Assembly (NCBI GenBank): GCA_937921935.1
Contig: CAKZWQ010000005.1
Span: 1 to 64,000 of the forward strand
Length of the DNA: 64,000 nucleotides
Reading direction: 5' to 3'
Source: an uncultured Gammaproteobacteria bacterium
Lineage (GTDB): Bacteria; Pseudomonadota; Gammaproteobacteria; Steroidobacterales; GCA-2729495
Below the pieces are notes generated by a model, which did no database searches, was not told the origin of the DNA, and saw nothing but the letters and a program-made list of their open reading frames with translations. A program made the position numbers and the translations under genes. Shown piece by piece: positions 1,984 to 4,855 of this stretch (its first letter is position 1; each line of letters starts with the position of its first letter).

Positions 1984-2651
1984 CAGCCCACCCTCGGTGC
2001 GGCCCGGCGATTCAGGCCGTAGACCAGTAACAGGGTGAGAAAAGAAAAGGCGAGTAACAGGGCCGACCACTGGTGGGCCTGGGCATAGTCCAGTGTCTCG
2101 ACCTGTTCATAGATGGCGATGGAGATGACCTGGGTGCGGCCAGGAATATTGCCACCCACCATCAGCACCACGCCGAACTCACCCACTGTATGCGCAAAGC
2201 CCAGGACTGCTGCCGTCAGAAAACCCCGGGCAGCCAGGGGCGATGCAATGCTAATGAAGGCATCCAGCGGCCTTGCGCCCAGGGTTGCGGCAGCTTCCAT
2301 GGCCCCCCGACCCTGACCCTGGAAAGCCGTCTGCAAGGGCTGGACCACGAAGGGCAGGGAGTAGAACAGCGAGGCGATCACTAGCCCGCTGAACGAAAAA
2401 CTGAGGGTGTCGCCCGTGAGCTTTAGCCAGAAGGCGCCCAGGCCCGCCTGGGGGTTGAATAACAGCAGCAGGTAAAAGCCCAGCACCGTGGGCGGCAGCA
2501 CCAGGGGCAGGGCGGTCAAAGCCTCCACAGCCGGCACCAGCCGGGCGCGGCTGTGAGCCAGCCACCAGGCCAGCGGCGTCCCCACCAGCAGCAGGATCAC
2601 CGTGGTCACGGTGGCCAGGCGCAGGGTGAGCCAGATGGGCGTCAGGTCCAT
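1983..2651 (-). CDS. modB: Molybdate-type ABC transporter permease
   Basis: MDLTPIWLTLRLATVTTVILLLVGTPLAWWLAHSR..., HTVGEFGVVLMVGGNIPGRTQVISIAIYEQVE ModB signature. Confidence 0.9.
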   Translation of the reverse strand: MDLTPIWLTLRLATVTTVILLLVGTPLAWWLAHSRARLVPAVEALTALPLVLPPTVLGFYLLLLFNPQAGLGAFWLKLTGDTLSFSFSGLVIASLFYSLPFVVQPLQTAFQGQGRGAMEAAATLGARPLDAFISIASPLAARGFLTAAVLGFAHTVGEFGVVLMVGGNIPGRTQVISIAIYEQVETLDYAQAHQWSALLLAFSFLTLLLVYGLNRRAAPRVG

Positions 2652-3853
2652 CAATGCGCGGCCGGCAGAGTATTCAGGAAGTTTTCAATTTCGTTCAGGA
2701 TCGAACGGCTGTCGCCGACGAACCACCAGTGATCATCACCTTCCAGCAATTTAAAACGGGCGCCTGGAATTCGGGCAGCAATATCCTCGCCGGCCCGGGC
2801 CTTGGAGATGAGATCGCCGCGCCGGTGCAGGACCAGTGTAGGTGCCTGGATGTTGGGCAGTACCGGGCGCACATCGATGTCGCGCAAGGCTTCGAGAATG
2901 CTGCGTACGCTCGCCGGGGTCGCTGAACTGCGGAGATAGCGCGACCATTCATCGCGTACCTGGGGATTCAGGGCAATGTTGGGAGCGAAAAACTCCAGGG
3001 AAGCCGGCTCGCCCCAGGCGCCGATAAATTCATTCAGCCACGCGTCGTATAAGCGGCGGGAACGGGCCCAGGGGTAATCTTTGCTGCGTACGCCTTTGGC
3101 AAATGCGCCGTACATGATCACGGCCGCCGTTCGTTCCGGGTGTTCAGCGGCAAACAGGGCGGTGGCGGGCCCGCCCTCCGACACGCCGAAGAGAATCGCT
3201 TTCTCTACGTCAGCGGCATCCAGCACGGCCAGCATGTCCGTGACGGTGTTCTGAATGGTGGGCGGATAACCCACGCGCTCGGACAGGCCCATGCCGCGCT
3301 TGTCAAAACTGATCAGGCGTCGGGTGGTCGCGAGGCGCTCGTCGAAGCGTGACAGGGGAGCTATGCGGTAGCGCATGTCCAGGTGGGACACGAAGCCGGG
3401 CACGAACAGCATGGCTGGTGAACCTTCGCCCAGATAACGCCACGCGATGTGCAGGCCGTCGCTTTGTACGAAATTCACGGGTGAGAGGTCGGCGGGCTCT
3501 GCCGCCTGGTCGGAATTAGCGGCAGTTTGAGCATTAAGAAGTCGGGCTACGAAGCGGTAGCCACGTTTCGGGACGGTTTTGATCACCTCTTGCCGATTAG
3601 TTTCATCCGCCACGGCTTTTCGGGCTTTCATGATGGTTCGGGACAGGGCAGCTTCCGTCACGATGACACCCGGCCATAGGGTGTCCAGCAGTTCATCATG
3701 TCCCACCACCCGGTCACGCTGCTCCAGCAGATATACCAGCAAGTCAAAGGCTTTGGGTTCAATATTGCGCGACTGTCCGCGCACCCGCAGCTCCCTGCGA
3801 GCTGTATCCAGTTCACAGTTGCCGAAGCGCCAGTTTTTCTCAGGTTCGGCCAT
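2651..3853 (-). CDS. OmpR/CadC-type winged-helix DNA-binding domain fused to alpha/beta hydrolase
   Basis: N-term WRFGNCELDTARRELRVRGQ...PKAFDLLVYLLEQ...TVPKRGYRF wHTH; C-term alpha/beta hydrolase with GVSEGG elbow, RRGD Asp and DDHWW His. Confidence 0.85.
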   Translation of the reverse strand: MAEPEKNWRFGNCELDTARRELRVRGQSRNIEPKAFDLLVYLLEQRDRVVGHDELLDTLWPGVIVTEAALSRTIMKARKAVADETNRQEVIKTVPKRGYRFVARLLNAQTAANSDQAAEPADLSPVNFVQSDGLHIAWRYLGEGSPAMLFVPGFVSHLDMRYRIAPLSRFDERLATTRRLISFDKRGMGLSERVGYPPTIQNTVTDMLAVLDAADVEKAILFGVSEGGPATALFAAEHPERTAAVIMYGAFAKGVRSKDYPWARSRRLYDAWLNEFIGAWGEPASLEFFAPNIALNPQVRDEWSRYLRSSATPASVRSILEALRDIDVRPVLPNIQAPTLVLHRRGDLISKARAGEDIAARIPGARFKLLEGDDHWWFVGDSRSILNEIENFLNTLPAAH

Positions 3854-3880
3854 GGTCAGAAAATGGTCATGAAAAGGTCA
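3854..3880 (-). promoter_or_regulatory. Three TGACC direct repeats at exact 11-bp spacing, adjacent to start codon of the wHTH-hydrolase gene (candidate operator)
   Basis: Minus strand TGACCTTTTCA TGACCATTTTC TGACC|ATG; GGTCA on plus strand at 3854, 3865, 3876. Confidence 0.55.
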
Positions 3881-3967
3881 CGGCTGCGTCAGGACCCCTT
3901 GTCATTGCAGGAGCACAGTATCTCCACGGGCCAAGCCCCGTTGCCATTGACCTAGGAGGAATCTGAA

Positions 3968-4285
3968 ATGAATGCTGCCACACTTTGTCGAGTCGCCGGA
4001 TTTTGTTTGGCCCTGGGTCTGACCCTGCCGGCGCAGGCCATGGAGCCCCCCGCCGCCAGTTACCGGGTGGAACTGGCCCGCTGCCTGGCTGCCCTGCGAG
4101 GCGATCTGGAGGACGAGCGGACTACCAAGCTGCGCCATACCGTTCGAGGCATAGAAAAGCACGGCATCTGGTTCGAGTTCCAGATCGATTCCGAGGTGTT
4201 CCAGGACAACCAGCCAACCGTAACCCGGGCCGTGAAAACCCGGTGCCGGGCGAATCGCCGGGCGGGCGCTGCGCAAATCAGCTAA
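3968..4285 (+). CDS. Small secreted hypothetical protein
   Basis: Signal peptide MNAATLCRVAGFCLALGLTLPAQA; good RBS (taggaggaa). Confidence 0.65.
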   Translation: MNAATLCRVAGFCLALGLTLPAQAMEPPAASYRVELARCLAALRGDLEDERTTKLRHTVRGIEKHGIWFEFQIDSEVFQDNQPTVTRAVKTRCRANRRAGAAQIS

Positions 4286-4375: not shown

Positions 4376-4855
4376 TTAATCAGGGCTGTTGGTGTCTGCG
4401 CCGTGGCGCGCCTGGTGGCGCTTGCGAGCGCCGGCCCGCATCTCTTCCCGACTCACATAACCATTGTTGTCGCCGTCCAGGCGCGCGAAGCGTTCATTCA
4501 CATTGGCGTGGCCGTGAGCCGGCAGGCTGCCCATCTCATCAATGGACAACTGACCGTCCCCGTCGCTGTCCAGGTCTTCGAATTTCGGTCGATGTTCCCG
4601 CATGCGCTGTCTGGCCTGGCGCATTTCTTCCTGCGTGAGATAGCCGTCGGCATCCGTGTCCAGCCGGGCAAAGCGTTCTTCGGCGCTGCGGCCGCCGCGA
4701 CTGGGTATCTGCGCCATTTCAGCGGCTGAGAGGCGACCGTCACCGTCCGTATCCCTATCCGCAAATCCCGGGCCGTGGCGATGCTCAGCCCCATGGGCCT
4801 GGCTGATCATCAGGCAGGCGAGCAGGGCAAGGTGAAAACAGGTGGCTTTTTGCAT
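4376..4855 (-). CDS. Exported EF-hand protein with four EF loops
   Basis: DTDGDGRLS, DTDADGYLT, DSDGDGQLS, DGDNNGYVS loops; signal peptide. Confidence 0.85.
   Translation of the reverse strand: MQKATCFHLALLACLMISQAHGAEHRHGPGFADRDTDGDGRLSAAEMAQIPSRGGRSAEERFARLDTDADGYLTQEEMRQARQRMREHRPKFEDLDSDGDGQLSIDEMGSLPAHGHANVNERFARLDGDNNGYVSREEMRAGARKRHQARHGADTNSPD

Follow-up and report, generated by a model that had tools for sequence, protein, structure and literature searches.

A divergent intergenic region of an uncultured gammaproteobacterium carries a run of short direct repeats, flanked on one side by the gene of a winged-helix (wHTH) regulator and on the other by a gene for a small secreted protein. 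Which protein would read these repeats, and which of the two genes would they serve? We followed up this locus in the 64,000-nucleotide stretch of contig CAKZWQ010000005.1 in which it was noticed (hereafter, the window), in the genome as a whole, and in related genomes of the same family and order. Taken together, the comparisons suggest that the array is the operator of the adjacent one-component regulator, which would activate the secreted-protein promoter with its hydrolase domain as the likely sensor. We assign this reading a probability of roughly 0.78.

The array contains four in-phase half-sites

The initial annotation had described three TGACC copies in 11-bp phase directly before an ATG on the minus strand, at window positions 3854–3880. 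This proved exact, but a fourth in-phase copy, TGACG at 3887–3891, had been overlooked, bringing the total to four. Read from 3891 down to 3851, the minus strand consists of TGACG, TGACC, TGACC and TGACC, separated by the spacers CAGCCG, TTTTCA and ATTTTC and followed by ATG. The array (3854–3891) thus has the form TGACG-N6-TGACC-N6-TGACC-N6-TGACC with an 11-bp pitch. Copy 1 (TGACG) lies nearest to the promoter of the secreted-protein gene; copies 2 (3876–3880) and 3 (3865–3869) make up the core pair TGACCTTTTNNTGACC; copy 4 (3854–3858) abuts the ATG of the regulator gene.

The array exceeds chance. Shuffled sequences give an expectation of 0.15 TGACC-N6-TGACC pairs per window, while two are observed, both within the array. 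The three-copy pattern has a single occurrence in the whole 3.04-Mb genome, as does the exact four-copy TGACS-N6 pattern, which is absent from the reversed control. When two mismatches were allowed, the three-copy pattern was found 8 times (a count that includes overlapping registers of the array itself) versus 6 for the reversed-pattern control. Since such relaxed matches stay near the control level genome-wide, no further targets were found in the genome.

The adjacent gene encodes a wHTH–hydrolase fusion

The proposed binder is a protein of 400 aa encoded on the minus strand at 2651–3853. Its N-terminus is a PhoB/OmpR-type wHTH domain (Trans_reg_C, PF00486, above cut-off), and its C-terminus is an alpha/beta hydrolase, the only domain besides the wHTH found with Pfam. 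All nine orthologues keep Ser225, Asp347 and His375, which, by analogy with the family, we take to be the catalytic triad. Neither a receiver domain nor a BTA domain following the OmpR-type domain was found in the Pfam search, and inspection of the linker (about residues 104–125) revealed no hydrophobic stretch that would make a membrane segment. Judging by frame length (225–263 aa), the four other PF00486 proteins of the genome look like response regulators, which leaves this protein as the sole Trans_reg_C protein of a different kind. In the literature searched we found no description of a regulator of this build and nothing relevant on wHTH–hydrolase fusions or TGAC arrays.

The regulator gene is followed by modB- and modC-like transporter genes with overlapping ends (886–2654); a modA-like gene was not noticed beside them. 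We considered a conserved operon of modBC with the regulator and rejected it, as the linkage is seen only in the source genus (three species) and is absent in the other genera inspected.

The array accompanies the regulator and the secreted-protein gene

Nine full-length orthologues of the regulator were found in the family. At eight of the nine, the secreted-protein gene is divergent to the regulator gene with the array in between, one half-site being degenerate in five of the eight. Failure of the repeats to persist upstream of orthologues had been named at the outset as an outcome that would speak against an operator; the array is kept at every one of the eight loci with the secreted-protein gene. 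Its pitch is conserved there as well, which supports the original interpretation of the 11-bp phasing as that of a probable PhoB/OmpR-type wHTH operator. The ninth orthologue (genome G021) has another divergent neighbour, and both the secreted-protein gene and the array are missing. In a congener (G016) this neighbour is present beyond the secreted-protein gene, and the array is also kept; the gene and the array have therefore gone together in G021, which could reflect one deletion covering both.

Across 40 family genomes, the core pair TGACCTTTTNNTGACC is present in 8, exactly those with both the regulator and the secreted-protein gene, and in 0 of the 32 others (Fisher's test, P-value 1.3e-8, which overstates independence given that the genomes are related). 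The orthologues are likewise related, so the conservation counts are not independent. This co-occurrence supports the earlier suggestion that the adjacent gene encodes the likely binder. An extra core pair in one genome (G028, C106:2698) precedes a lipoprotein-like gene in an orientation opposite to the model and was treated as chance.

The secreted-protein gene and its predicted promoter

The proposed target, on the plus strand at 3968–4285, encodes a protein of 105 aa whose start resembles a signal peptide and which has two conserved Cys residues. Searches of Pfam and NCBIfam gave no match to a known family. The structure model has a mean pLDDT of 83, and a fold search with the protein returned only insignificant NTF2/cystatin-like matches (best E-value 0.022). 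A Shine-Dalgarno sequence, AGGAGG, was located by inspection at 3954–3959. Just past the gene, at 4376–4855, lies a frame for an EF-hand protein that looks secreted and carries several calcium-binding motifs. In genome G008 (locus L059), a divergent homologue of the secreted protein stands 3′ of a TetR-like gene without a TGAC array, as if it had come under a different regulator.

To look at the region downstream of the arrays, 21 of them were aligned, with the last GTCA as the anchor. The best offset for a –10-like hexamer was a start 22 bp after the last GTCA, with A at –11 and T at –7 in 18 of the 21 arrays; in 2000 random rotations the observed score was never reached, and the same held for a reduced set of 15 loci. 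GTCANG was invariant (21/21), within an alignment that is itself anchored on GTCA. The predicted –10 hexamers are weak. At the locus studied here, the array is followed on the plus strand by GGACCC (3892–3897), the start of a conserved GGACTC-like stretch in the –35 region, then by the predicted –10 element CACAGT (3914–3919), 22 bp after the array, and by the predicted +1 A within a conserved CCA (3926). With +1 at 3926, the GTCA of copy 1 would fall at –38 to –35, which by prediction places the array at the –35 region of the target promoter. Control of the small secreted protein, raised initially as one of two options, gains support from this fixed 22-bp spacing to the predicted promoter.

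The repeats might instead be a minisatellite or a functionless chance repeat, and plain 11-bp TGACC minisatellites do exist in some genomes (G238, G376, G681 and G722). Minisatellites retain their spacers, whereas here the spacers differ and the half-sites are kept across orthologues; with the array conserved and the promoter spacing fixed, we consider this explanation the most improbable of those weighed.

A probable activator site of the secreted-protein gene

The distance between the array and the ATG of the regulator gene is 0 bp in the source genus (three species) and 51–67 bp in other genera. Contact with the start codon, emphasized in the initial annotation, is thus real at this locus but confined to one genus. 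Spacing to the divergent promoter is fixed, while the distance to the regulator ATG varies from 0 to 67 bp; this comparison makes an activator role at the secreted-protein gene the best interpretation of the array. Any part in controlling the operon of the regulator itself, the other option first raised, would accordingly be secondary or genus-specific.

The opposite assignment would make the array mainly an autoregulatory repressor site for the regulator gene, with the secreted-protein gene as a bystander. Divergent regulators commonly autoregulate, and in three species of the source genus the array does abut the ATG. Set against this are the variable spacing just described, the orthologue lacking the secreted-protein gene, which retains the GGTATCCTT box but has no array, and the arrays of genomes G120 and G155, which lie downstream of the regulator and ahead of the next gene. 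We regard a mainly autoregulatory site as unlikely and favor activation of the secreted-protein gene.

No Shine-Dalgarno sequence precedes the regulator ATG in the source genus. In other genera, a –10-like GGTATCCTT (conserved GGTAT[CT]CTT, loci L004–L009) ends 5–9 nt before this ATG, a position compatible with a regulator transcript that has no leader or almost none.

TGAC arrays adjoin one-component wHTH genes across the order

For other wHTH genes of the order, we analyzed 79 upstream regions. Among all 256 four-mers, TGAC topped the ranking by pairs at spacing 11, with 16 pairs versus a mean of 0.8 at other spacings. A recognition-helix pattern, [ST]E[STA][AS][LIV][ST][RK]A, chosen after inspecting the data, separates these regions: arrays are present with 8 of 8 proteins that have it, compared with 2 of the 71 others.

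Exact four-copy arrays were found at 12 places in 396 genomes of the order. Three of these are plain minisatellites and nine are not, and eight of the nine adjoin a one-component PhoB-type wHTH gene. Three of the eight belong to the locus type described above, three accompany a CadC-like gene to which a membrane-protein gene is divergent, and two (G120 and G155) separate the end of the regulator gene from a following gene of like orientation. The ninth array (G234) has no one-component wHTH gene nearby. Outside the order, most exact four-copy matches are tandem minisatellites; for the others, the 3 kb inspected contained no one-component wHTH gene.

Several array-linked loci differ in their targets or domain order. 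In several families, beside CadC-like regulators (L119–L122, L214 and L216), the target is a membrane protein, NnrU-like or isoprenylcysteine methyltransferase-like by eye, and at L115–L117 it is a GDSL-like secreted esterase. At L018 and L221 (genomes G098 and G155) the regulators have their domains in reverse, with the hydrolase ahead of the wHTH, and TGACG arrays precede the gene that comes next. One four-copy TTGAC array from beyond the order (L232, genome G519) stands after the apparent end of a histidine kinase gene.

Comparison with known direct-repeat operators

In the Pho box, a winged-helix fold binds direct repeats that follow one another head to tail in units of 11 nt (PMC4415409). 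The array shares this arrangement with the E. coli site, and the fold of the regulator matches PhoB chains. The differences lie in the core, GGTCA/CGTCA here versus CTGTCAT in E. coli, in the copy number, three to four here, and in the protein: PhoB is a response regulator with a receiver domain, and the regulator has a hydrolase and no such domain. One could still suppose a Pho-box-like site used by PhoB or another OmpR-family two-component response regulator, with the neighbouring regulator incidental: the 11-bp direct-repeat design is that of the Pho box (PMC4415409), and the genome encodes four response regulators with this wHTH. However, TGTCA-N6-TGTCA is at control level in the genome (3 vs 3), within the family the core pair goes with the one-component regulator and the secreted-protein gene, and it is one-component wHTH genes that stand next to four-copy arrays in the order. 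On the core letters and the co-occurrence pattern we reject the reading as a Pho box, and we consider a two-component system as the reader of the site very improbable, slightly more so than autoregulation.

At the afs box of Streptomyces, the OmpR-type domain of AfsR binds 11-bp direct repeats that overlap the –35 element; the upstream repeat spans –40 to –30, and the –10 element, CACTGT, is suboptimal (PMC10936776). The last GTCA of our arrays, at the predicted –38 to –35, is in the same phase as this upstream repeat. Unlike the array, whose copies are all upstream of about –35, the afs box includes another repeat at –29 to –19, and SARP regulators such as AfsR have a BTA domain where the regulator has a fused hydrolase.

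In NCBIfam, the regulator's wHTH matched CadC best; it also matched PDB entry 5ju7, and CadC/ToxR-like proteins share with the regulator an N-terminal OmpR-type wHTH without a receiver domain. They have a membrane segment between wHTH and sensor that inspection did not reveal here, and the reported ToxR site, TNAAA-N5-TNAAA (PMC8517210), differs from the TGAC array. The hydrolase domain is closest to that of LipJ-type hydrolase/cyclase fusions (E-value 4.9e-45, below the LipJ family cut-off) and also matched RsbQ, a hydrolase-fold protein whose name comes from sigma-B regulation. The output of LipJ and RsbQ is a cyclase or a phosphatase partner; in the regulator it would be the DNA-binding domain.

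The array would function much as a Pho box or an afs box does, yet it belongs to neither kind. With its 11-bp direct repeats and linked wHTH gene it can be classed, from its sequence, as a putative OmpR/PhoB-type wHTH operator. What is new relative to known direct-repeat operators of this type is the distinct core, the higher copy number, and the enzyme-fused one-component regulator.

Discussion

We propose that four direct half-sites with a GTCA core and an 11-bp pitch would serve as the operator for the adjacent regulator. Judging from the sequence comparisons and from how this fold is known to behave, several copies of the regulator would most likely line up head to tail along a single face of the DNA, each docking by its N-terminal PhoB-type winged helix. 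The promoter-proximal subunit would overlap the weak –35 region and recruit RNA polymerase to the secreted-protein promoter. The C-terminal hydrolase, its triad intact, probably senses a small molecule resembling an ester or a lactone; it may instead act as an enzyme. In the source genus the array covers the translation start of the regulator, so that feedback is possible there, and binding may repress or tune the regulator.

A broader picture, which we offer tentatively and hold to be somewhat doubtful, is that of a family of ligand-gated one-component activators. In these, an intact alpha/beta hydrolase would sense, and perhaps cleave, an ester or lactone, and the fused winged helix would form a filament of three to four subunits on TGAC arrays, switching on an undescribed family of secreted proteins; one TGAC operator code would serve quite different sensor domains within the order.

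For a wHTH–hydrolase regulator, a binding site, a promoter and a target gene can now be predicted. The arrays point to one operator code common to several sensor types in the order, and indicate that pairs of regulators and targets may be predictable from DNA alone in uncultured bacteria. The molecule sensed by the hydrolase domain thereby becomes a question that can be tested with a simple reporter.
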